Shown: positions 619 through 13,674, numbered from the stretch's first letter. The stretch: 14,411 nucleotides of DNA from Candidatus Fermentibacterales bacterium (GCA_016928495.1 JAFGKQ010000306.1:1-14411); one strand, 5' to 3'. Numbers and translations: made by a program. The notes: generated by a model from the letters alone, not told the origin.

Positions 619-647
619 TTGACTGAGACTCCGGCCGCGGGAATAGT
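619..647 (+). promoter_or_regulatory. Sigma70-type promoter for the envelope-machine operon
   Basis: TTGACT (619-624) is followed after 17 nt by AATAGT (642-647), matching 5 of 6 and 4 of 6 consensus positions. It would give a leader of roughly 80 nt before the ATG at 733. It is the best candidate in the 205-nt divergent spacer and carries the same -35 hexamer as the opposing promoter at 582-587. Confidence 0.45.
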
Positions 648-732
648 CCATGCAACCGCCGTGTAGTGCTGACGGCGGAACGGGCTACATGGGTTTCGAG
701 CTCACCGGGCCGCTACCGAAGGAGCTGTGAGC

Positions 733-1683
733 ATGCGAACATTTGTATCCTCCACACTGCTCGCTGTCACCACTGGGCTCTTCTCCGCGGCCGGGACCCG
801 TGCCGGGTCCCTCCCCTTCGCGCGCTCCGGCGTCCTCGACTCGCCCGATGCCTACATCCTCAGGCACACGGAAGTTGAGATGGAACTCTCCGCAGCCGCC
901 TACACGGTCGCGGACACCAGCGGCGGCAGTGACAGCGAGTTCGCCCTTACCGGCCACATCGACATCGGTCTGTTCGACTACGGGCAGATAGGCGTCTCCT
1001 ATCTCGCCGACGGAGGCATCTCCGGAAGCGTCAAGCTGTCCGTGATCAGGGAGAGCGTCACGGTCCCCGCCTTCGCGGTGGGTCTCGAGAACATCACGGG
1101 AGAGAAGTACATCGAGCACTTCAAGCAGCCCGACGGCAGCTTCTACCCCTACGATCACCAGCAGAACTGGTCCGCCTACGGAGTGGTCTCGAAGGACTTC
1201 AGGTACCTGATCGGCGTTCCCGTCACACTGAGCGTGGGCATAGGTCTCGGCAGGTTCGTCGGGGTCATCGACAACGGTTCTCTGGGGATAGGAAGCAGGC
1301 TGGCGCACGGTGCCTTCGCCTCGCTTGTCTACGAGCCAGGCGAGCGCTTCGACATCATCCTGGAGGAGGACGGGCGGGACTTCAACCTCGGGCTCCGGTA
1401 CGAGGTGAGCCCCCTGTTCACCGTGGAGATCGCCTGGGCCGAGTTCGAGAAGACTCTCTTCCCCGCCGAGACCCACAACCCCGCTGACATAATGCAGAAC
1501 TCCAAGTTCTCGTTCGGCCTCTACTCCCGCTTCGGGCCCCTCTTCGGAGCGAGAAGGCTCGAGCTGGAGCGTGAGCAGCAGAGGATCCAGCGGGCCAGGG
1601 CCAGGCTGAGGGAGCTGGAGGAGAGGCGGCGGGCCGCCGAGGAAGAGCTGCAGAGACTGATGGAGCTCCTGGAGAGCGATTGA
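733..1683 (+). CDS. Outer-membrane-type beta-barrel protein with C-terminal coiled coil
   Basis: The gene encodes 316 residues. ATG 733 is preferred over GTG 727 because GGAG (721-724) is 8 nt from the ATG but only 2 nt from the GTG. Residues 1-24 form a signal peptide (RTFVSSTLLAVTTGLF, cleavage near TRA-GS). Residues 45 to about 270 show alternating polar/hydrophobic strands with Gly and aromatic residues (HIDIGLFDYGQIGVSYLADGG, FNLGLRYEVSPLFTVEIAWAEF), as in YjbH-like or other outer-membrane barrels. The last ~42 residues (275-316) are a charged amphipathic helix rich in Glu, Arg and Leu (REQQRIQRARARLRELEERR), predicted to be a periplasmic coiled coil. The barrel therefore does not end in the usual C-terminal aromatic strand. 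It is the first gene of the operon, and the next start overlaps its stop. Barrel identity is inferred; no exact family is recognised. Confidence 0.78.
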   Translation: MRTFVSSTLLAVTTGLFSAAGTRAGSLPFARSGVLDSPDAYILRHTEVEMELSAAAYTVADTSGGSDSEFALTGHIDIGLFDYGQIGVSYLADGGISGSVKLSVIRESVTVPAFAVGLENITGEKYIEHFKQPDGSFYPYDHQQNWSAYGVVSKDFRYLIGVPVTLSVGIGLGRFVGVIDNGSLGIGSRLAHGAFASLVYEPGERFDIILEEDGRDFNLGLRYEVSPLFTVEIAWAEFEKTLFPAETHNPADIMQNSKFSFGLYSRFGPLFGARRLELEREQQRIQRARARLRELEERRRAAEEELQRLMELLESD

Positions 1684-4600
1684 CGGGAGGCGTGTTGGGC
1701 AGGCTTCTTGTCCCCCTTCTGCTTGCCGTCGCCCTCCTGTTCCCGGTCAGCGGGGACGACGGGGACGACCTGGAGCTCGACGGGCTCATACGGGCTGCCC
1801 AGGAGGAGCTGGCAGCTCTCGAGGAGCAGATATCCAGGGAGGAATCCAGGATCGCCCGCCTGGAAACCCAGCTCGTCGAGCTGCGTCAGCTACAGGCGAT
1901 AAGATCCAGCGCCAGCAGCGCGTTCAGGCTCGGCGAGGAGCTCTACGAGAGCGGGTCCATCGTCTGGGCCAGAGACGCCTTCGAGGCGGTCATCGAGAAC
2001 TTCCCCGAGTCCGACTTCTGCGTTCAGGCTCTCTTCCGCCTGGAGCTGATCTGCTTCGAGCTACAGGACTTCGAGCAGTCTCTAGCCTACTTCGGTGAGC
2101 TCAGGCAGAGGGACCCCGTCTTCGAGCACATGGACCTTGCCCTGATCACGGCCGCCCTCAGCAACTACAGCACCGGCGAGTTCCCCGAGTGCAGGCGCCT
2201 CCTGGGCGACATCTCACCGACGGGTCGCTTCGATGTGCTTGCCGACTACCTGACGGCAGTCGCCTTCGTCGAGGAGGGGCAGGTCGATGCCGCCAGGGAA
2301 ACCCTCGAGAACATCCTGAGCAGGGCCGGGACTCACAGGGAGGAAGCGGCCCTGGCCGACAGGGCCAGGATAGCCCTTGCAGAGATCATGGTGGACGAAG
2401 AGAGCTTCGAGGAAGCGCTCGACCAGTACGACCGGATCTCGCCCTTCAGTCCCTACTACGACATAGGGATGCTGGGCAAGGTGTGGGTCCTCATGAGGCA
2501 GGAGGAGTACCAGAGCGCCTACAACCTCGCGGAGCGCGTGCTCAGGGAGGTGCCCTCTACGGAGCTGCGCAACGAGTTCGATCTGGCCATGGCGAACTGC
2601 GCCCTGGGCGCCGAGGACCTGGACGTGGCGATAGCCCGTTACCGGCAGCTCATGAACGAGCACCGGCAGTCCGTGGGCATGCAGGAGCTGTTCCTGAGCG
2701 GCTCTTCCACCGAGGAGCAGTACGAGGAAGAGAGGGAGCGGCTGGAGAGGATAAGGCTCGGGCTGGCCGAGCTCAAGGCCGAGGCCTACTCCAGGGGCGA
2801 CCTCGAGGCCGTCGAGATGATCGAGCGGGAGGAGGAGGCGATAAGGCAGCTCTTCGTGAGCATCTCCGCCATGGAGGCGGAGATGTCCCTTCCCGTCGAG
2901 GAGATGAGCACGGAGAGCATGATCAGGGAGCTGAACAGGCTCATAAGCGTGAACAGGGACCAGACGGAGGCCCTCGCGATTTCCGTAGACGAGGTGGAGA
3001 GGCTGGCCTCGTCATCGGGCAACGCCGCCCAGCTCCGGGAGATCGGCGATCTCGAGGAAGAGGTGGACAGGATCAGGCTGGCCCTGCAGGACCTCGCCTC
3101 CAAGTTCGAGACCGGGCTCACGCAGAGCCACGAGTGGCTGCAGGAGACGCAGTACGGCATCGCGATAGCGACCTACATGGAGAGGGAGCTCCGGAGGGAC
3201 TCGCTGAACTACCTCGGCTACCTCTACCAGGACCAGATAAGACTGGCGGAGGGGCAGGACGATTCCATCGCCGTGCGCAACCTCCAGGCCGAGAGACAGC
3301 GGAGGACCACGGCTCTGCAGCAGAGGATCGACGCTTCCGCCATCGAGTGCGCCGAGCTTCTTGAGGAGTACCTGGCGAGCTTCCCCGAGAGCCGCTTCAC
3401 CGCAGACATCCTGGTCAGGCTGGCGCAGCTCTACTACGACATAGACAAGGCAGCCTACCTGGACATGATCGCCTCCAGCACCGGCGAGACCTTCGTCCCG
3501 GAGGACTACACAAGGTCGGTGGAGCTCTACCAGCGCGTGCTCGACAACTACCCCGGGAGCGATGTGGAGGACGTTGCCCTCTACTCCCTGGGCTACTGCC
3601 TCCAGAAGATGGGCGACCCTGCCGGCGCCGTTGCCAACTACAGGCGGCTCCTCGCGCAGTACCCCCAGAGCGCTCTCGCCGCGGAGACCAACATACGCGC
3701 GGGGGACTTCTACTTCGAGAGCTTCGAGTTCGACAGCGCCGAGGTCTACTACACGAACATCCTCGATCACCCCGGAGCGGATCCCGACCTCTACCAGCTC
3801 GGGATCTACAAGCTGGGCTGGACCTACTACCTCCTGAACGACTACAAGAAGTCGGTGGCGGTCTTTGCCTACCTCATCCGGGACAGCCAGAGGATGGAGG
3901 AGCTGGGAGTCGCGAGCCGCAGCGGAGCCATGGTGAACGAGGCGATGGAGTACATGGCTCACGACTTCATGGAGCAGGGGCAGCAGGCTCCGGTCAGCCT
4001 CGCGACCAGGTTCCTGGACAGGTTCGGGGACGAAGATGTCGGCTACGAGGTCCTCTCGCAGATGGGCGTCTTCTATCAGGAGCAGGGCTACTGGGTGGAG
4101 GCGATCGGCTCGTTCGAGGCGCTGCTCGACAGGTATCCGAATGCCGGGCAGGCTCCCTACCTCCAGGCCAGGATCGCGCTGTGCTACGAGGGCGCCGGAG
4201 ATCTGGAGATGGCCAACCAGGCCAGGGAGGAGCTCATCGAGAACTACTCCTACGACAGCGAGTGGGCCTCTCTGGTCGGCCAGGAAGTGGCCACCGCCGC
4301 GATCGACTCCCTGCGCGGCCAGACCCTCAGACAGGCCGTCCTCTACTACCATCAGCAGGCTGTTGCCCTGAAGGACGAGGACCCCAGCCGGAGCAGGCAG
4401 TACTGGAGGGGGCTGGCCGAGAGGGCCGGGACCTATCTGCAGGAGTACCCGGACTCGAGGGAGGCGCACGAGTTCAGGTTCATTCTCGGTGACGCCTACT
4501 ACAGCCTCGGAGACTACGTCGAGGCAGGCGACTCCTACATGGCCGTCGCGACGGACAGCACCTCCATGCAGAACCAGGAGAACGCGCTGAACAACGCCTG

Positions 4601-6101
4601 CGCATCCTACTTCAGCGCTTATACGGACGTCCAGGGAATCGACAGCACTCTGGTGAGGGGGAAGCTCGAAGCAGCGCTCGCCCTCTACGTGGATCTCTAC
4701 CCGGAGGGCGAGAACGTCCAGCTGTTCCTCTACAATCTGGCCGGCTACTCCTACGACGCCGATGATTTCGCGACTGCCAGGACCTACTACCGGATGATCT
4801 ACGACGACTACCCGAGCTCCGAGTACGTCGCGCGATCCGCCAGGATGATCGCTGCCGCGTACGAGCTCGACGAGATGTACGGGGAGGCCGAGACCTGGTA
4901 CGAGCGGGCCGCGGCCGCGGCCCGCAGGACCGGCGAGGACCTGGGGGAGGACTTCGAGCTTCTCGCGGCCAGCGCGGCCTACAGGGATGCCGAGTCCCTC
5001 GCCCAGAGCGAGGACGTGGTCTCACTGCTGACCGCAGCGGCGAGGTTCGAGGAGTCCGCGAGGGCCCATGCCGGGTCCGCGATTGCTCCCGTTGCGCTCT
5101 ACGACGCGGGCGAGACCTACGCGAAGGCCGGGGACCTCGAGAACTCCGTGAGGTGTTTCCGTGACCTGTCCAGGGTCTACCCCGAGAACGAGCTCGCCCC
5201 GAGAGGGCTGCTTCGTGCCGCTGTGCTTGCCTACGAAGCGGCTGACTACGTGATGGCAGGCAACATGTTCCTGGAGGCCCACAGCCTCTATCCCGAGTCG
5301 CCGGAGCTGTCCGGCGCGCTCTACAACGCCGCGCTGTCCTTCGAGGAGGCAGGCCGGACTGACCTGGCCGTGCAGGTCTATGACCGGATAGTGGCTGAGC
5401 GGACCGGCAGCGCACAGGTCATGGTGGAGATAGCCGGCAAGTACGGTGAGTACCTCTACGAGCACGGCCTGAGGACGGAAGCCTCGGAGATGTTCCGGCT
5501 CACGATCGAGGTCTACGACATGTACAGGGCCGGCGAGGTCTACTACCCCGGCATGGCAGCGTTCAGGCTGGGTGAGCAGGCCTTCGAGAGCTACAGGTCG
5601 GTGACCGCGACGGTCGGGACTGCCGCTCAGAAGACCCAGCTGATGCAGGAGACCGAATCCTGGTACACCAAGACCCTGAACTACTGGCACGAGACCTGGT
5701 TCATGGCTGCCTGCGTCAGAGCCGGCGAGCTGTACGAGGACTTCGCCAACTCGATCGGGTTCATGGATCCGCCGGCCGACCTGGTCGCGATAGGACCCGA
5801 TGCCGTGGATGCCTTCTACGCCGAGCTCTATCCCGTCATGGAGCAGTACCTGGGCAAGGCCCTCACGGTGTACCAGTTGGCTGTCGAGAAGGCGATCTCG
5901 GCCGGGATCATGAACGCATGGGTGATCAGGGCCGCCGACCATCTCGAGCTGATGATGCCGGGAGCGGTCCAGCAGATGGGCGGGCTGCCCGGATACGGAC
6001 CCGCGCCCGAGGAGGCTGGACAGGTCGAAGAGGAAGGCGTAGACTCCTCTGAGTCAGGCGATCTCGGCACGGATGCCGGCTCCGGGACGGGGTCGGAATG
6101 A
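1680..6101 (+). CDS. Giant periplasmic TPR protein (YbgF/BamD/AgmK-like repeats)
   Basis: The gene encodes 1473 residues with a signal peptide (GRLLVPLLLAVALLFPVSG). The start is uncertain: TTG 1680 overlaps the previous stop and has GGAG 5 nt upstream; GTG 1692 and TTG 1695 lie just after GGGAGG (1685-1690). All keep the signal peptide. Residues about 30-66 form a coiled coil (AAQEELAALEEQISREESRI), as at the N-terminus of YbgF/CpoB. TPR units follow at about 70-322 and 535-1350, with BamD/YbgF-type spacing (EVIENFPESD-like, YRRLLAQYPQSALAAE, YYRMIYDDYPSSEYVARSA). A second, long coiled-coil/helical segment interrupts them at about 324-482. The tail (about 1437-1473) is acidic and rich in Gly/Ser. 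It is probably a protein-protein scaffold in the periplasm that links the outer-membrane barrel to the inner-membrane motor encoded downstream. Very large TPR proteins also accompany Agl/Glt gliding motors. The exact partner is unknown. Confidence 0.88.
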   Translation: MTGGVLGRLLVPLLLAVALLFPVSGDDGDDLELDGLIRAAQEELAALEEQISREESRIARLETQLVELRQLQAIRSSASSAFRLGEELYESGSIVWARDAFEAVIENFPESDFCVQALFRLELICFELQDFEQSLAYFGELRQRDPVFEHMDLALITAALSNYSTGEFPECRRLLGDISPTGRFDVLADYLTAVAFVEEGQVDAARETLENILSRAGTHREEAALADRARIALAEIMVDEESFEEALDQYDRISPFSPYYDIGMLGKVWVLMRQEEYQSAYNLAERVLREVPSTELRNEFDLAMANCALGAEDLDVAIARYRQLMNEHRQSVGMQELFLSGSSTEEQYEEERERLERIRLGLAELKAEAYSRGDLEAVEMIEREEEAIRQLFVSISAMEAEMSLPVEEMSTESMIRELNRLISVNRDQTEALAISVDEVERLASSSGNAAQLREIGDLEEEVDRIRLALQDLASKFETGLTQSHEWLQETQYGIAIATYMERELRRDSLNYLGYLYQDQIRLAEGQDDSIAVRNLQAERQRRTTALQQRIDASAIECAELLEEYLASFPESRFTADILVRLAQLYYDIDKAAYLDMIASSTGETFVPEDYTRSVELYQRVLDNYPGSDVEDVALYSLGYCLQKMGDPAGAVANYRRLLAQYPQSALAAETNIRAGDFYFESFEFDSAEVYYTNILDHPGADPDLYQLGIYKLGWTYYLLNDYKKSVAVFAYLIRDSQRMEELGVASRSGAMVNEAMEYMAHDFMEQGQQAPVSLATRFLDRFGDEDVGYEVLSQMGVFYQEQGYWVEAIGSFEALLDRYPNAGQAPYLQARIALCYEGAGDLEMANQAREELIENYSYDSEWASLVGQEVATAAIDSLRGQTLRQAVLYYHQQAVALKDEDPSRSRQYWRGLAERAGTYLQEYPDSREAHEFRFILGDAYYSLGDYVEAGDSYMAVATDSTSMQNQENALNNACASYFSAYTDVQGIDSTLVRGKLEAALALYVDLYPEGENVQLFLYNLAGYSYDADDFATARTYYRMIYDDYPSSEYVARSARMIAAAYELDEMYGEAETWYERAAAAARRTGEDLGEDFELLAASAAYRDAESLAQSEDVVSLLTAAARFEESARAHAGSAIAPVALYDAGETYAKAGDLENSVRCFRDLSRVYPENELAPRGLLRAAVLAYEAADYVMAGNMFLEAHSLYPESPELSGALYNAALSFEEAGRTDLAVQVYDRIVAERTGSAQVMVEIAGKYGEYLYEHGLRTEASEMFRLTIEVYDMYRAGEVYYPGMAAFRLGEQAFESYRSVTATVGTAAQKTQLMQETESWYTKTLNYWHETWFMAACVRAGELYEDFANSIGFMDPPADLVAIGPDAVDAFYAELYPVMEQYLGKALTVYQLAVEKAISAGIMNAWVIRAADHLELMMPGAVQQMGGLPGYGPAPEEAGQVEEEGVDSSESGDLGTDAGSGTGSE

Positions 6102-6553
6102 CCCGCCTGCCGAACGCAGGCTTCAGGGCCCGGGTCGCCGCGGCCCTGGTGCCGGTCCTCCTCTGCTCGATCGCCTTCGCTCAGGCCCGGATAGAGCAAG
6201 GCAGGCTCATACTCGAGGAGATCACGATCAGGGGTGAGTTGCGGACGCCTCAGGCCCTCTTCATCATCATGAAGAGCACTCCCAACCTGAGCAACGTGCT
6301 GCTCGAGAGGAGCTTCCTCGAGGACGTGGTGAGGCCGATCTATCCCGATGCCTTCGGAGAGGACCCCATGTTCTCGAGCGGGGAGCCGCGGATAGTGCTT
6401 CCCTGGTGGCTGCGCTACGGCACTGTGGCCGCCTTCGGGGGGCTCTCCGTGTATGGCTATACGTCGGGGAGCGACGAGGAGAGCCTTGCCTTCGGAGTGA
6501 TCGCCGGGCTCGGTCTCGTAGGGAATCTGATACTCGATCTGGTCGGGGACTGA
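6098..6553 (+). CDS. Exported 151-residue protein of unknown function, motor-operon component
   Basis: The ATG overlaps the preceding stop as ATGA, so translation is probably coupled to that of the TPR gene. Residues 1-28 are a signal peptide with a basic n-region (MTRLPNAGFRARV) and cleavage near AFA-QA. The mature N-terminal half contains LILEEITIRGELRTPQALFI followed by ERSFLEDVVRP, a compact motif (ITIRGELRxPQ, then LLERSFL) that looks like a conserved family signature rather than random sequence. The C-terminal third has two hydrophobic Gly-rich helices (about 105-121 and 129-148), which may sit in a membrane. I do not recognise a named family. Its position directly before the TolQ-like gene suggests a periplasmic or membrane adaptor of the same complex. 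Confidence 0.75.
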   Translation: MTRLPNAGFRARVAAALVPVLLCSIAFAQARIEQGRLILEEITIRGELRTPQALFIIMKSTPNLSNVLLERSFLEDVVRPIYPDAFGEDPMFSSGEPRIVLPWWLRYGTVAAFGGLSVYGYTSGSDEESLAFGVIAGLGLVGNLILDLVGD

Positions 6554-6593
6554 GAACCCGCTTGCGCTCTGCTGAGAGAGGAGATGGAACCTG

Positions 6594-7484
6594 ATGCGTC
6601 GTCTAGTCTTTCCCGTGCTCACTGTCGTGGCGGCCACGATCCTGGCCGGAATGGTCCTTGCCCAGCCGCCCGAGGGTGATGTCCCGGCTGACTCCCTCCT
6701 CGCTGACTCTCTTCGAGCCGACTCGCTGAGGGCTGACTCCATCGCGGCCGTTCAGCGGGCGGATTCCATCCGCGCCGATTCCATAGCATCCCTGGAGGCC
6801 GCCAGGGCCGATTCCATCGCTGCCGCGCTGGAAGCCGAGGCGAGCAGAGGCTTCTTCGCGAAGGCGGCGGACTTCTTCCGCAAGGGTGGTCCCGCGATGT
6901 GGGCCATCCTGCTCTTCCTGACCGCCGGCCTTGCCATATTCATCGAGCGGTTCATCTTCCTCTTCTTCGTAGCCAATCTCCATCCCGAGAGCTTCATGGC
7001 GAGGATTGCGGATCTGGTCCGCAGGGGCAGCATCGAGGGGGCCATTGCCGCGGCCTCGAGCAAGGACGCTCCGCTGGCCAGGGTAATAGAGGCTGCGCTG
7101 CGGAACTACCGCGGCACGGCCCGGGACATCCAGAACGCGGTGGACGAGATGGCGCTTGCGGAGCTCCCGCGGCTGAACGCCAGGACAGGGTATCTCGCCA
7201 TGCTTGCCAACGTCTCGACGATGGTCGGCCTGCTAGGCACGATCTTCGGACTGATCACAGCGTTCTCCGCCGTTGCCGCAGCTGACCCCGAGACAAGGAG
7301 CACCCTGCTCGCGAACGGCATCTCCCAGGCGATGAACACGACCGCGTTCGGCCTGATGTCGGCCATTCCCCAGCTCATCGCCTACTCGTTCCTCACTTCC
7401 AAGGCAGACAGGCTGATAGACGACATAGACCGGTACTCCGTCATGGTCATGAACATGCTGGCACAGGCGAGGAAGGAAGACTGA
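6594..7484 (+). CDS. MotA/TolQ/ExbB-family proton-channel protein with N-terminal ADS-repeat extension
   Basis: The gene encodes 296 residues; AGGAG at 6579-6583 precedes the ATG by 10 nt. Residues 1-23 are a cleavable-type signal peptide (ending VLAQ). Residues 32-75 are an unusual periplasmic low-complexity stretch with seven copies of ADSL/ADSI. The TolQ/ExbB domain follows: TM1 about 102-126 (WAILLFLTAGLAIFIERF), a cytoplasmic helical region, TM2 with the signature MVGLLGTIFGLITAF (Thr216), and TM3 with NTTAFGLMSAIPQLIAYSF (Thr249/250). These threonines and the GLLGT and AIP motifs line the ion path in the family. Members form a pentameric inner-membrane stator around a TolR/ExbD dimer and use the proton-motive force. 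The two following genes supply the TolR/ExbD partners, so assignment to this motor is strong. Whether it is a TolQ, ExbB or AglR orthologue cannot be settled here. Confidence 0.93.
   Translation: MRRLVFPVLTVVAATILAGMVLAQPPEGDVPADSLLADSLRADSLRADSIAAVQRADSIRADSIASLEAARADSIAAALEAEASRGFFAKAADFFRKGGPAMWAILLFLTAGLAIFIERFIFLFFVANLHPESFMARIADLVRRGSIEGAIAAASSKDAPLARVIEAALRNYRGTARDIQNAVDEMALAELPRLNARTGYLAMLANVSTMVGLLGTIFGLITAFSAVAAADPETRSTLLANGISQAMNTTAFGLMSAIPQLIAYSFLTSKADRLIDDIDRYSVMVMNMLAQARKED
6687..6818 (+). repeat. ADS(L/I) short repeat encoded in the TolQ-like gene
   Basis: Codons 32-75 carry seven ADSL/ADSI tetrapeptides, mostly with a five-residue period (PADSL LADSL RADSL RADSI, then RADSI RADSI and RADSI). 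At DNA level the unit gc-(c/t)-gac/gat-tcc/tct recurs with synonymous changes, so the repeat appears to be kept at protein level and is not a fresh tandem duplication. Confidence 0.8.
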
Positions 7485-7485
7485 G

Positions 7486-8055
7486 ATGGCTCAGGCCGCT
7501 TCAGGCCGCAGCCACAGGAAGAAGCGCGGGACGGTCCTCGACATGCTGCCCGTTATGAACCTGTTCTGCGTCATCATCCCCTTCCTGCTGCTCAGCGCCT
7601 CCTTCCTGGAGGTGACCACGATAGCGATGTCCCAGACCGAGGGGATAAGCCGCTCGGGAGGTTCTACGGCCAACCTGGCCCGGTCCGAGGAGGACAGGCT
7701 CCAGCCCAAGGTCATCGTGACGGAGCGGGAGATGTTCCTCGGCACCACGGCGGCAACGGTCCATGTCTGCTACAGCTTCCAGGTCCTCGACCAGGAGACG
7801 GGCCGCTCGATCACGAGGTATGACATGGATTCCCTGCGCATCAAGCTCCAGGAGGCCCACGAGGTGCTCTCCGAGGCCTATCCCATGATCGAGTTCAGGA
7901 AGGTCACCATCCTCACGGAGCCCAGGGTCCGCCTGGACAACTTCGTCGAGGTGGTGGACGTCTGCCGGGAGATCGGGCTGGATCAGCCGGGCCTTCAGGT
8001 CGCTCCCCCGGAGGCCTTCGCGTCCGCCCTGGGCGGCCTTCCGAGGGGAGGCTGA
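7486..8055 (+). CDS. TolR/ExbD-family protein 1, with Asn in place of the proton-carrying Asp
   Basis: The gene encodes 189 residues; its ATG starts 1 nt after the TolQ-like stop. A short basic cytoplasmic N-terminus (SGRSHRKKRG) precedes one membrane helix (about 22-42), then a periplasmic domain ending in the TolR-like pattern ILTEPRVRLDNFVEVVDVCREIGL. In ExbD/TolR/MotB the start of the helix reads N-x-x-[TS/P]-x-x-D, with the Asp carrying protons. Here it reads DMLPVMN: Asp19 is at the usual Asn position and Asn25 at the Asp position (codon 7558-7560). The rest (LFCVIIPFLLLSASF) aligns well, so the gene does not look decayed. It probably pairs with the second ExbD protein in a hetero-dimer inside the TolQ-like pentamer. 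The family call is firm; the functional consequence is inferred. Confidence 0.88.
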   Translation: MAQAASGRSHRKKRGTVLDMLPVMNLFCVIIPFLLLSASFLEVTTIAMSQTEGISRSGGSTANLARSEEDRLQPKVIVTEREMFLGTTAATVHVCYSFQVLDQETGRSITRYDMDSLRIKLQEAHEVLSEAYPMIEFRKVTILTEPRVRLDNFVEVVDVCREIGLDQPGLQVAPPEAFASALGGLPRGG

Positions 8056-8063
8056 GGCACAGA

Positions 8064-8600
8064 ATGGCTGCTCCCAGCAAGAGGCATGTCCCCCTGTTTC
8101 TCGGCTACAACAAGTCGAGGGCCCTTCTGCGAGGCCTGGACAGGAAGGTCGAGCTCAACCTCACCTCGATGATCGACATGTTCACGATCCTGGTGGTCTT
8201 CCTGCTGAAGAGCTACAGCGCCGAGGGCGCCATAGTGACCGTGAGCCAGGCGCTGGCGCTGCCCCATTCCCATGCCGAGCAGCGCATCGAGATGCGCCTT
8301 CAGATAGACGTCAACAACTCCGTGATCGTCGTGGACGGCGATCCGGTGGTTCAGGTGGACGAGGATCTCCTCTCCACCGGCAACTCCATCCCGCTTCTGA
8401 CCGCCCGTCTGAGGGATCACCTGGAATACACCGCACGCCTGAAGGGTACACTGGGCGAGGAGGACAGAGTGGTGAACATCCAGGGTGACGAGGCGATCCC
8501 GGCGATCCTGCTGCAGAGGGTGATGGCAAGCTGCTCCGAGGCCGGATACGAGACGCAGAACATCGCCGTGATCAAGATCGAGGGCGAGGAGCAGGAATGA
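8064..8600 (+). CDS. TolR/ExbD-family protein 2, canonical Asp retained
   Basis: The gene encodes 178 residues and begins 8 nt after the first ExbD-like gene. A longer basic cytoplasmic segment (residues 1-31, KRHVPLFLGYNKSRALLRGL) precedes the signature NLTSMIDMFTILVVFLLKSY, with Asn32 and the proton-carrying Asp38 in the normal positions (codon 8175-8177). The periplasmic domain has the expected beta/alpha pattern (MRLQIDVNNSVIVVDGDPV, then ILLQRVMASCSEAGYETQNIAVIK). It should supply the protonatable subunit of the motor. Its sequence is clearly different from the first ExbD protein, so the pair is not a recent duplication. Two different TolR-like partners for one TolQ-like stator are also known in the Myxococcus Agl motor (AglR with AglQ and AglS). 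Its stop overlaps the next start as ATGA. Confidence 0.92.
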   Translation: MAAPSKRHVPLFLGYNKSRALLRGLDRKVELNLTSMIDMFTILVVFLLKSYSAEGAIVTVSQALALPHSHAEQRIEMRLQIDVNNSVIVVDGDPVVQVDEDLLSTGNSIPLLTARLRDHLEYTARLKGTLGEEDRVVNIQGDEAIPAILLQRVMASCSEAGYETQNIAVIKIEGEEQE

Positions 8601-10474
8601 GCAGAGCGGGCCCGGAAGAGGGGAAGATCCTCGCCATCGCGGTGACCCGCGACGGCAAGGTCGTCAACAAGCTCATCCCGGGGCGGGAGCCGGTCAGGCT
8701 CGGCAGCGACTACAACAACAACATCATCGTGGAAGGCCCGAGCGTGCCCGGGAGCATGGTGCTCATCTCCCCGGGGCCGACAAGGGGCACCTACGTCCTG
8801 CGCCTGACCGAGAGCATGGACGCCAGGATCTCGTCGCCCGACGGCACCACCCTGGTCTTCAGCGACCTCCGGGATCTCGGCGTTTTCAGGATGGAGAACG
8901 GGGTCTTTCTCTGGAGCTTCAAGTACGGCGATCAGGGGCAGGTCCAGATAGGCCCCTACGCCGTCCATTTCGGCTACATACAGCCTCCGCCGCCGCCCAG
9001 GAAGGAGCCGGTCGCGGCTCCCGAGCCCGTGGCAGCCGGGCAGGAGGAGGCGGGCCCGGCGGACGAGCGCGTTCTCCGGCTCATCGTGACCGTCGGGAAC
9101 GAGGAGAAGGAGATCATCCCCAATGCGGGCATAGCCACAATAGGGGAGGCCGACTACAACACCGTCCACGTCAGGGGCGCGGGACTTCCCAGGATCCACA
9201 CTCTGCTTGAGCCTGCCGACGGCAAGTACAGACTGAGCCTGCTGCCCGAGATCGACGGCGGCATCATGGTGAAGGGCAAGATCCTCTCTTTCCAGACCCT
9301 CATCGAGAGGAACCTCCTGACGCAGTCCTCGCCTGGAGAGCCTTTCGTATGGGAGTTCGACAAGAACGTCTCGGGCGTGTTCGTGGTCGGAGGCAAGGAG
9401 ATATCCTTCGGCTTCGTGGAGCCTCCCAGGGCGGTTCCCGGGAAGCAGGCTGCTCCAGCGCCGCCGGCTGAGATCCCGAGGGAGAAGTACGTTCCACCCG
9501 AGTACGACTGGTCCAGGTTCGCCGCACGGCCCCATGACGCGCTGGTCTGCAAGGGCCCCATAAGGGAGGCTTCCAGGTTCCAGATGATCATAGGCGCCGG
9601 AATCGCCATCGCCGTTACTCTGGGGGCCGTTTGCGACCGCCTGATCGTGGTTCCCGAGGAGACCATAACCCAGATGCTGAGGCGTGCTCCCAGCGCCAGG
9701 GTCGCCAGCCTGGCGCAGGTTCCCCAGGCCGTCGAGGGCGTCGGGGAGGAGATCATCGGCGACCTTCCCGACGCGGAGACCGTCAGCGGCATAGGCACCG
9801 GCGGCGGAGGGCCTGGCGGAGGCCAGGGATCCGGTCCTGCCGGGGTCGCTGCCGGTCAGCAGACGGCTGCGGGCGTGCTCCAGGACATCGGCTTCGCCGC
9901 CTACGGAACTGGAGCAGCCGGCGGTGGACCCGGCTTCATGTCCGATCTGCAGAGCGCTGCCTCGTCCGGGCTGGGGCTTCACTCGGGAGTCTCCGGGGAC
10001 GGTCTGATGGAAGGGTCCGGCGGTGGCGGCGGAGGATCGGGCGGGATCACAGGGCTGGTCGGCACAGGAGGCGGCATAGAGGCTGCGGAGACCGTCTCCG
10101 CAGACCAGGTGGCCGCTACCCACAGGGCAGCTTCCGTCACGGTCTCGGCCTCCGCGACGGGGCAGGCGATCGATCTCGGCTTCCGCAACATGTCCGACAT
10201 CAGAGCGCGTCTGGGCATTCTCAAGATGAGGGTCCAGACCGCCTACGAGAGCCTCCTCAGGAGCAATCCCACCGCGGGAGGCACGATAACGGTCAACTTC
10301 TCGATCACCCCCGGAGGCTCGGTCGTGGGCGTCTCGGTGTCCGCGCCCTCCGAGCTCCAGGGACTGGTGGCGACGGTCCAGTCAGCTACTCAGGCCCTCA
10401 ACTTCGGAGCTGCCGAGGGCCAGACGGAGAACCTGCCGGTAACCGTGCCGATAAGGCTCCTGCCGCCCGAGTAG
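8597..10474 (+). CDS. GltG/GltJ-like integrator: two FHA-like domains, one TM helix, AgmX/PglI TonB-like C-terminus
   Basis: The gene encodes 625 residues and overlaps the previous stop by ATGA. Residues about 10-128 and 158-275 are two related cytoplasmic beta domains. The first has PVRLGSDYNNNIIVEG; the second has ATIGEADYNTVHVRGAGLPRIH, recalling the FHA pattern IGR...N.I....S..H, but the phosphothreonine-binding Arg and Ser are largely lost. Both end in strands leading to GF/GY-V/I (HFGYIQP, SFGFVEP) before a Pro-rich linker (130-150, 276-301). One membrane helix lies at 330-346 (MIIGAGIAIAVTLGAVC). A Gly-rich periplasmic spacer (about 395-495) leads to a C-terminal domain (535-625): LKMRVQTAYESLLRSNPTAGG, then TVNFSITPGGSVVGVSV. 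This fits the AgmX/PglI, TonB-like fold. The protein would couple a cytoplasmic signal and the motor to periplasmic or outer-membrane partners. It is the last gene of the operon. Confidence 0.87.
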   Translation: MSRAGPEEGKILAIAVTRDGKVVNKLIPGREPVRLGSDYNNNIIVEGPSVPGSMVLISPGPTRGTYVLRLTESMDARISSPDGTTLVFSDLRDLGVFRMENGVFLWSFKYGDQGQVQIGPYAVHFGYIQPPPPPRKEPVAAPEPVAAGQEEAGPADERVLRLIVTVGNEEKEIIPNAGIATIGEADYNTVHVRGAGLPRIHTLLEPADGKYRLSLLPEIDGGIMVKGKILSFQTLIERNLLTQSSPGEPFVWEFDKNVSGVFVVGGKEISFGFVEPPRAVPGKQAAPAPPAEIPREKYVPPEYDWSRFAARPHDALVCKGPIREASRFQMIIGAGIAIAVTLGAVCDRLIVVPEETITQMLRRAPSARVASLAQVPQAVEGVGEEIIGDLPDAETVSGIGTGGGGPGGGQGSGPAGVAAGQQTAAGVLQDIGFAAYGTGAAGGGPGFMSDLQSAASSGLGLHSGVSGDGLMEGSGGGGGGSGGITGLVGTGGGIEAAETVSADQVAATHRAASVTVSASATGQAIDLGFRNMSDIRARLGILKMRVQTAYESLLRSNPTAGGTITVNFSITPGGSVVGVSVSAPSELQGLVATVQSATQALNFGAAEGQTENLPVTVPIRLLPPE

Positions 10475-10475
10475 A

Positions 10476-10493
10476 GCCCGAGCGCGCTCGGGC
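10476..10493. repeat. 18-bp perfect palindrome just after the operon
   Basis: GCCCGAGCGCGCTCGGGC begins 2 nt after the last stop codon of the operon. It may form a first hairpin that supports termination or protects the mRNA 3' end, ahead of the larger hairpin at 10507-10534. Confidence 0.6.
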
Positions 10494-10506
10494 CGGAGTA
10501 TCGAAA

Positions 10507-10538
10507 GGGGCGCACCGGATGCCCGGTGCGCCCCTCTT
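10507..10538. terminator. Rho-independent-type terminator, probably bidirectional
   Basis: A perfect 12-bp stem (GGGGCGCACCGG, loop ATGC, CCGGTGCGCCCC) is followed by TCTT on the plus strand. On the minus strand, the short run TTTCGA follows. It sits between the operon and the convergent lipoprotein gene, so it can serve both. The T tracts are short, as is common in GC-rich genomes. Confidence 0.7.
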
Positions 10539-10558
10539 CGTGCAACTGGATAACGGTC

Positions 10559-10888
10559 CTACTCGAAGAGAGCCTTGATCGTTCCCCAGGTCTCGCTCTG
10601 GAGGGCGAGCAGCTCGCCCTCGATGATGAAGGGAAGGCCCTGGGGCTGGTTGGTCCCACCCATGAGGATGGGGGACCAGCTTCCCGTGTAGTACTGCCAG
10701 GCGTCGCCCGTCTCGGGCTGACCGGTGATGGTCACGGGGTTGCCCCAGACACCGGAGGACACCGTGTCGATGGAGGTGGTCATCAGGACCGAGCTCTGTT
10801 CCCATGCCCTGCCCGAGCAACCGGCCAGGGCCAGCGCGGCCAGGATGGCCAGCTGCAAGTGGCGTGGCGTGAAGGCAGCAGAAGGCAA
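10559..10888 (-). CDS. Small predicted lipoprotein of unknown function
   Basis: This encodes 109 residues if started at TTG 10888-10886, which is preferred because AAAGGAG lies 6 nt upstream (10901-10895). An in-frame ATG at 10921 would add 11 residues but has no good ribosome binding site and would bury the SD inside the gene. The N-terminus is a lipoprotein signal (RHLQLAILAALALAGC) with lipobox LAGC and Cys24. The mature protein is about 86 residues, rich in Gly, Thr, Ser and Trp, without recognisable motifs (GNPVTITGQPETGDAWQYY, GGTNQPQGLPFIIEGELLAL). It is probably anchored to a membrane facing the periplasm. It is convergent with the motor operon and shares its terminator, and divergent from the PH-like gene. 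No family is recognised. Confidence 0.68.
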   Translation of the reverse strand: MPSAAFTPRHLQLAILAALALAGCSGRAWEQSSVLMTTSIDTVSSGVWGNPVTITGQPETGDAWQYYTGSWSPILMGGTNQPQGLPFIIEGELLALQSETWGTIKALFE

Positions 10889-10894
10889 CCGAGG

Positions 10895-10901
10895 CTCCTT
10901 T
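10895..10901 (-). promoter_or_regulatory. Shine-Dalgarno sequence fixing the lipoprotein TTG start
   Basis: AAAGGAG on the minus strand stands 6 nt before TTG 10888-10886. The same heptamer precedes groES at a similar distance, which supports it as the favoured ribosome binding site in this genome. Confidence 0.6.
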
Positions 10902-10936
10902 CGGCGTGGTGAGGGGCCCAACCGCCCCGAGGGGGG

Positions 10937-11005: not shown

Positions 11006-11656
11006 ATGAAAGCCAGGTTCGACAGAGACACCATCGAGCAGAGGCTGGCGGCTCACCTCGGCGCCGGCGAGAGGTTGCTGGCCTGGGGCTGGGGCACGCT
11101 GGGCATGAAGAACGTGCTCACAGCCGCGACGAGCCAGAGGCTGCTCCTCGAGTTCGTCAGCATCGGCCTGAGGACAAGGGAGGTTCAGTCCATGCCCTAC
11201 GGCAGCCTCGAAGCGGTGGAGACCCGCAAGGGGGACTCCACGATACCGGGATGGGCGAAGCTCAACCTCCAGCTCGCTGCGATGAGCGCGTTCACGACCA
11301 GCCTTGTTCTCAAGAAGGTGGGGGAGCCGCCATTCCATATCCTGTTCAGGCCCATGCCCCGCCTGGGCGACAACCGGGGCGCCGCCCTCGAGATCGGCAG
11401 GATCATCATGGAGATGAGGCCCGAGCTGCCGACGAGCGTCGACTACGCCGGGGATGCCGGGGACAGCCGGCGCCCGGGATGTGCAACGGCGCTTCGATGG
11501 GGCGTTGTCGGAGGTGTCGTGCTGGCGGTGCCTGTGGGGGTTGCCCTCGGGGGTCCGGAGGGATTCGCAGCCGGCTTCTTCGCCGGGGCGCTGGTGGCGG
11601 GTCTCTTCTCGTTCTTCTGGGCGATGATCAGGAGATCGTTCACCGGGACCGGCTGA
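11006..11656 (+). CDS. PH-like domain membrane protein
   Basis: The gene encodes 216 residues; AAGGAAGG ends 5 nt before the ATG. Residues about 12-138 resemble the bacterial PH-domain (YokE-like) pattern: LGAGERLLAWGWG, then LTAATSQRLLLEF, PYGSLEAVETRKG, and a final helix (AALEIGRIIMEM). A linker leads to two Gly/Ala-rich hydrophobic helices (about 164-182 and 186-207), so the PH-like domain is predicted to face the cytoplasm from the inner membrane. Such domains are mostly of unknown role in bacteria. The gene stands alone between the lipoprotein and a strong hairpin facing groEL. Family assignment is by pattern only. Confidence 0.72.
   Translation: MKARFDRDTIEQRLAAHLGAGERLLAWGWGTLGMKNVLTAATSQRLLLEFVSIGLRTREVQSMPYGSLEAVETRKGDSTIPGWAKLNLQLAAMSAFTTSLVLKKVGEPPFHILFRPMPRLGDNRGAALEIGRIIMEMRPELPTSVDYAGDAGDSRRPGCATALRWGVVGGVVLAVPVGVALGGPEGFAAGFFAGALVAGLFSFFWAMIRRSFTGTG

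Positions 11657-11731: not shown

Positions 11732-13674
<1,943 letters not shown>

Follow-up and report, generated by a model that had tools for sequence, protein, structure and literature searches.

Introduction

In Myxococcus xanthus the AglRQS motor works with the Glt proteins in a gliding machine, for which a contact between AglR and GltG and a TonB-box model have been put forward (PMC3169522, PMC5349195), and the Nfs machine moves surface polysaccharide (PMC3858216). A 'core complex' (Group B) of gltC, gltD, gltE and gltG with aglR, aglQ and aglS is found in Gamma- and Deltaproteobacteria and in Fibrobacter; its function is not known and its hosts are mostly not known gliders, and GltF was regarded as confined to the Myxococcales and Bdellovibrionales (PMC3169522). 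In the 5:2 model the Asp residues of the dimer are protonated in turn, with ten protons per revolution, and D22N in MotB imitates protonation; it is stated as not known if AglQ pairs with AglS or each with its own kind (PMC9389320). The AglQ substitution D28N abolishes proton conductance and stops both M. xanthus gliding and Nfs-driven coat assembly (PMC3858216). Here we describe a seven-gene operon in a 14,411-nucleotide stretch of DNA (the window) from a Candidatus Fermentibacterales bacterium (GCA_016928495.1, JAFGKQ010000306.1), which probably encodes a single energised machine spanning the envelope, compact and related to the Agl-Glt machine and the core complex, driven by a heterodimer of two TolR-like subunits with one proton site between them. 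The window is a complete contig (G000:C78) of a metagenome-assembled genome of 2.3 Mb that is 81% complete.

Results

Seven tightly packed open reading frames (ORFs), all on the plus strand, span 727-10474 of the window. They are separated by gaps of 1, 8 and 40 nucleotides (nt) and joined by three 4-nt overlaps, and our ORF calls agree with an initial annotation, made from the sequence alone, that had described seven genes with 1-40 nt gaps or ATGA overlaps. The motor is encoded by a TolQ/ExbB/AglR-like channel subunit (6594-7484, plus strand), a TolR/ExbD-like subunit in the AglQ position (subunit a; 7486-8055, plus) and a second in the AglS position (subunit b; 8064-8600, plus). These match Pfam MotA_ExbB (PF01618, 2e-26) and ExbD (PF02472, 2.4e-7 for a and 1.6e-11 for b) respectively, among 21 families, mostly TPR, matched by the operon as a whole. 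The pore residues Thr216 (7239-7241) and Thr250 (7341-7343) of the TolQ-like subunit are both conserved in 17 of 17 loci read from other lineages.

The two TolR-like subunits differ at the proton-binding position. Subunit b has the proton-binding aspartate, Asp38 (GAC, 8175-8177), and subunit a has Asn25 (AAC, 7558-7560) where ExbD, TolR, MotB, AglQ and AglS have the proton-binding Asp, followed by a proline, Pro32, at +7. The Asn of subunit a is thus the same substitution that was used to disable the Myxococcus motor, AglQ D28N. Within the phylum Asn25 is invariant in 32 distinct a sequences and Asp38 in all 33 distinct b sequences. Ordinary ExbD/TolR proteins from three genomes had the Asp in 12 of 12 cases, one read by eye and the others by pattern. 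The initial annotation had proposed an Agl-type motor; this stands as far as its grouping with AglRQS (see below) is concerned, but the absence of the proton-binding Asp from the first TolR-like protein had escaped it.

The asymmetry extends well beyond the phylum. Among 33 complete trios from outside Fermentibacterota and the sampled Myxococcota (some of whose genomes may be Myxococcota that the sampling missed) the a/b pair was N/D in 28, G/D in two, S/D in one and D/D in two. The sampled Myxococcota, 70 loci with near-duplicates included, gave D/D in 56, N/D in 12, G/D in one and D/A in one. None of the complete pairs was without Asp in both subunits. The single D/A case (locus L250, contig C470 of genome G410, 3084-4313) is the reverse of the usual pattern: the AglQ-position subunit has the Asp and the AglS-position subunit an Ala, in an otherwise unchanged gene order, and this pair also retains exactly one Asp. 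A proline at +7 was present in 53 of 57 non-Asp subunits versus 2 of 62 Asp subunits. Sequence searches of the PDB with a and b gave no meaningful match, and TolQ matched TolQ/ExbB only. The open literature, subscription papers not being covered, held no report of Asn-type ExbD/TolR proteins or hetero-TolR motors.

Two arrangements of the stator could accommodate these data. In the one that we favour, a pentamer of the TolQ-like subunit would house an a-b heterodimer in which the Asn of a mimics the protonated state and only the Asp of b cycles, so that each axle would have a single proton site, not two; with Asn in place of one Asp, every second proton-driven step would drop out or become passive. 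Alternatively, the working stator might be TolQ5-b2, with two Asp residues as in ExbBD, and a might be a catalytically dead paralogue that acts as a plug or adaptor and, for instance, anchors the motor to the cell wall or the TPR protein. Subunit b alone would meet the known 5:2 chemistry, and both the invariance of its Asp38 in the phylum and the consistent difference between a and b in the transmembrane (TM) helix, at the +7 proline, suit such a homodimer. Against it, a and b lie near each other in the complete trios read, a retains its TM helix and its ExbD profile match, the D/A locus of G410 would require a2 as the motor, and M. xanthus requires both AglQ and AglS, with the Asp of AglQ essential (PMC3858216). 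We consider the b-homodimer rather unlikely, and the D/A locus, having exactly one Asp, fits a one-site heterodimer slightly better.

Searching 290 genomes with subunit a identified it in 40 genomes outside Fermentibacterota. Many of the loci fetched from these carry the TPR gene, small gene, TolQ, a, b and integrator in the same order as the operon, and three genomes of one further genus (G071, G218 and G353) have all seven parts, with the TPR gene split in two. A Myxococcus-like genome (G069) served as the reference for the Agl-Glt proteins. Its GltG scores over the curated cut-off, and its TolQ/TolR/TolR trio has TolR proteins of 162 and 194 amino acids (aa), the lengths of AglQ and AglS (PMC3169522), by which the pair is identified as AglQ and AglS; the Asp at residue 29 of the former, counted from the start codon chosen, is taken to be AglQ D28. 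Profiles built from Fermentibacterota matched these proteins at 4e-60 (TolQ to AglR), 3e-9 (a to AglQ) and 9e-27 (b to AglS).

A tree of TolQ, a and b, with the two diagnostic columns removed and rooted on ExbB/TolQ, placed all heteromeric motors, including AglRQS, in one group (support 100/100) apart from the Exb/Tol outgroup. Within this group AglRQS is the sister of the Fermentibacterota motors, though without full support (92/75). This concurs with the relation to Agl-Glt machines that had been proposed initially, as does the resemblance of the TPR protein, small protein and integrator to GltD, GltF and GltG. The Asp/non-Asp state of a changes four times on each of two trees: Asp is found in AglRQS, in another group of Myxococcota and at two smaller points, and the other branches are mostly non-Asp. 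We infer that the Asp was regained in the gliding motor; change counts alone do not fix the direction. At about even odds, these motors represent a widespread asymmetric class of 5:2 ion motor, with a heterodimer axle bearing a single Asp and a partner locked by Asn (or Gly or Ser) as if permanently protonated; the two-Asp AglRQS would then be a derived form, having regained its second site in one of some four such events on the sampled tree.

The same tree bears on the possibility that the operon is simply the host's Tol-Pal or TonB energiser in another gene order. Its TolQ-, TolR- and TonB-type domains, and a long TPR protein with a YbgF-like profile, are what such an energiser would have. 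A genome search found, however, a separate and complete tolQ-tolR-tolA-tolB-pal set with a TPR gene on contig C53, so that the operon is not the only TolQR set of the genome, and contig C61 encodes ExbB-ExbD-ExbD adjoining a TonB-dependent receptor. The operon itself has no tolA, tolB, pal or TonB-dependent receptor gene, and the tree sets its motor apart from both systems. With these separate loci and the rooted tree a Tol-Pal or TonB operon is ruled out for practical purposes, and any residual probability is very small; the initial annotation had been right to say that this is not a plain operon of either kind. The host's other ExbD pair, on C61 (locus L001, 1941-3160), has Asp in both subunits.

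The host belongs to the phylum Candidatus Fermentibacterota and is the only sampled genome of its family. Searches with subunit a found it in 38 of 42 genomes of the phylum, and those with the integrator in 41 of 42, some weak matches being other TonB-tail proteins; each was found in 24 of 24 near-complete genomes. Named carriers of integrator relatives are Candidatus Fermentibacteria, Sabulitectum and Hyd24-12 bacteria, which is the basis for placing the host in this phylum. The order barrel-TPR-small-TolQ-a-b-integrator is constant in all uncut neighbourhoods read except that of G013 (locus L056 on G013:C30; genome 1.9 Mb, 98% complete), which has TolQ, a, b and a shortened integrator, with unrelated genes at the barrel, TPR and small-gene positions. 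The barrel was not found anywhere in the G013 genome. The recurrence of the identical order across the phylum and in three genomes of another lineage indicates that the gene set is more than chance.

The last gene of the operon encodes the GltG-like integrator (8597-10474, plus; 625 aa), identified from NCBIfam matches, structural models and VIA-align comparisons. Its architecture comprises two FHA-like domains (8618-8980, residues ~8-128, and 9065-9421, residues ~157-275; all plus strand), a single TM helix (about 9575-9628, plus), a Gly-rich linker and a TonB/TolA-like C-terminal domain (10181-10468, residues 529-624, plus), the domain limits being VIA-align ranges. VIA-align Z scores are moderate, 7 to 8 for the FHA-like domains and up to 7.6 for the TonB/TolA-like end, and the FHA and TonB fold types recur among the top rows, each fitting its place in the protein. 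In profile searches the C-terminus matched Pfam TonB_C at 0.0022, under the cut-off, and the AgmX/PglI tail NF033768 matched the integrator at 3.3e-7 (30.3 bits, cut-off 40); the integrator profile matched the GltG of G069 at 4e-7. A TonB-type fold, as had been predicted for this C-terminus, is thus what the models give. FHA domains bind phosphothreonine through the residues GR...S..H. Phosphopeptide binding by the FHA-like domains of the integrator is doubtful, since these residues are mostly absent from them. Small exported proteins consisting of only an AgmX/TonB-like C-terminal domain also occur alone in several relatives, at L266 (2601-3038), at L267 (6756-7160) and, at L038, directly downstream of the integrator.

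The small exported protein (6098-6553, plus; 151 aa) was identified as GltF-like by a motif and by a family hidden Markov model (HMM). The motif, LEEITIRG...P (nt 6206-6343), is conserved across phyla in the shared form LEEI.I.G...P, which we take to resemble a TonB box by comparison with those of receptors. An HMM of the small-protein family, built from many lineages, scored the GltF of G069 at 12.4 bits as against 2.7 for the best of 1909 scored shuffles; the comparison covers this one GltF, whose ORF was found by reading frames and probably lies inside a longer overlapping frame. The small gene and GltF are also alike in position, before GltG. A TonB box has been named on GltF (PMC9389320), and possible TonB boxes of GltA and GltB have been proposed as contact sites for GltG (PMC5349195).

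The giant TPR protein (1680-6101, plus; 1473 aa) is exported, matches TPR-, YbgF- and BamD-type profiles and begins with a coiled-coil-like stretch. Its counterpart in G071, G218 and G353 is two adjacent TPR genes, an arrangement suggesting that the 1473-aa form arose by fusion. Its HMM matched the ORF at the gltD position of G069 at 7e-46; TPR profiles cross-match widely, and GltC and GltE are not separated by this comparison.

The operon is headed by the barrel gene (727-1683, plus), encoding 318 aa with a signal peptide. In its model (predicted local distance difference test score, pLDDT, 66.7) barrel strands are followed by a C-terminal helix of 43 residues (residues 275-317, nt 1549-1677). 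Foldseek matched the model to the outer-membrane barrels NanC, KdgM and FapF, with 155 matches at E<=0.001. The helix is kept across ten relatives, where it is among the best-conserved parts, and is present in other lineages too. Alignment of the barrel against the Myxococcus-like G069 and an Anaeromyxobacter-like genome (G216) gave nothing at E<=0.001; a structural analogy to the GltA, GltB and GltH barrels is possible. Most genomes of Fermentibacterota have a second barrel locus, which in the host (L263, G000:C57, 7221-9081, minus) consists of two tandem barrels of the same family with no adjoining motor genes.

Two strong hairpins (10476-10540, plus; -50.2 kcal/mol, z -5.6) follow the integrator, without the T-run of a classical terminator. 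Of the promoter-to-hairpin limits given initially the hairpins hold; the candidate promoter (619-647) is a weak consensus match, such sites numbering four in the window versus 1.6 expected. Beyond the operon lie a small lipoprotein-like ORF (10562-10921, minus) and an ORF of 216 aa (11006-11656, plus), both without a Pfam or NCBIfam match and both missing next to the operon in the relatives read, and groEL with groES (11732-13674, minus), which are near in most relatives in varying orientation. No gene for MglA, AglZ, GltJ, GltI, GltK or CglB lies within the operon; the genome itself was not searched for them.

Discussion

We propose that the seven proteins work as one machine. The single TM helix of the integrator would bind the a-b motor, its two FHA-like domains would sense the cytoplasmic side, and its TonB-like end would reach through the cell wall and take hold of the GltF-like small protein at the strand that resembles a TonB box. 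Together with the TPR protein and the barrel's coiled coil, the small protein may then pass the stroke on to the outer membrane, probably to pull or move an outer-membrane barrel complex or a surface polymer. The machine might instead serve genuine gliding in Fermentibacterota, as Agl-Glt does in Myxococcus. Such a role would agree with a motor sister to AglRQS and with GltD-, GltF- and GltG-like partners, but the AglQ-position Asp needed for Myxococcus gliding is absent here, the barrel has no relative in the Myxococcus-like or Anaeromyxobacter-like genome, and the core complex is found in bacteria without known gliding (PMC3169522). No paper was found whose title or abstract addresses the motility of Hyd24-12 bacteria. 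We judge gliding improbable, and work on the outer membrane or a surface polymer appears likelier.

Several observations weigh against a one-site machine of this design. AglQ D28N alone kills conductance and motility in M. xanthus though the Asp of AglS is intact (PMC3858216); the substitution being lethal to that D/D motor, one site is therefore insufficient there. The stoichiometry of AglRQS is stated as not known (PMC9389320). The link between Asn and the +7 proline comprises about four independent changes, and these four pairs are too few for a tree-corrected test. The model of the integrator has low overall confidence (mean pLDDT 53.5), and in NCBIfam the protein reaches the cut-off neither for GltG nor for the AgmX tail. 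In G013 the locus has the motor and integrator but none of the barrel, TPR and small genes.

That the normal state in Fermentibacterota is the loss-of-function state in Myxococcus implies either that the motor cycle tolerates one site or that the roles of the subunits have been misjudged. The natural N/D pair makes the dimer question testable, as an a-homodimer should conduct no protons. What is new is a relative of the Agl-Glt core, compact and conserved phylum-wide, that has a barrel of its own and a single Asp in its stator pair. It brings the core machine, together with a GltF-like part and a partner made of barrel and coiled coil, into an uncultured phylum and further lineages.

Comparison with known systems places the operon at graded distances. 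Tol-Pal and ExbBD-TonB share the channel chemistry and a TonB-like C-terminus, but their TolR/ExbD proteins keep the Asp, they fall outside the clade of this motor, and their TolB, Pal and receptor are not encoded here. The TolQ-TolR-TolR-TPR-vWA clusters (PMC12204202) likewise encode a TolQ, two different TolR proteins and a TPR protein; their transducer ends in a vWA domain, whereas that of the operon ends in a TonB/TolA fold. The Nfs spore-coat machine, a paralogue of Myxococcus Glt, shares the motor class but uses AglRQS, of the D/D type. With AglRQS and GltD, GltE, GltF and GltG of M. xanthus the operon shares a TolQ and two different TolR-like proteins of one clade, an FHA-TM-TonB integrator, and TPR and small exported partners. 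The two differ in the Asp of AglQ versus Asn here, in the two FHA-like domains here, with the canonical Arg and Ser largely not kept, in the three gene clusters of Myxococcus versus one operon, and in the barrel, for which no GltA/B/H-type relative was found. Like the operon, the Group B core complex clusters the motor trio, TPR proteins and integrator in one region; in Fermentibacterota, by contrast, a barrel with a coiled coil heads the operon, the TPR genes are apparently fused, and a GltF-like gene is present.

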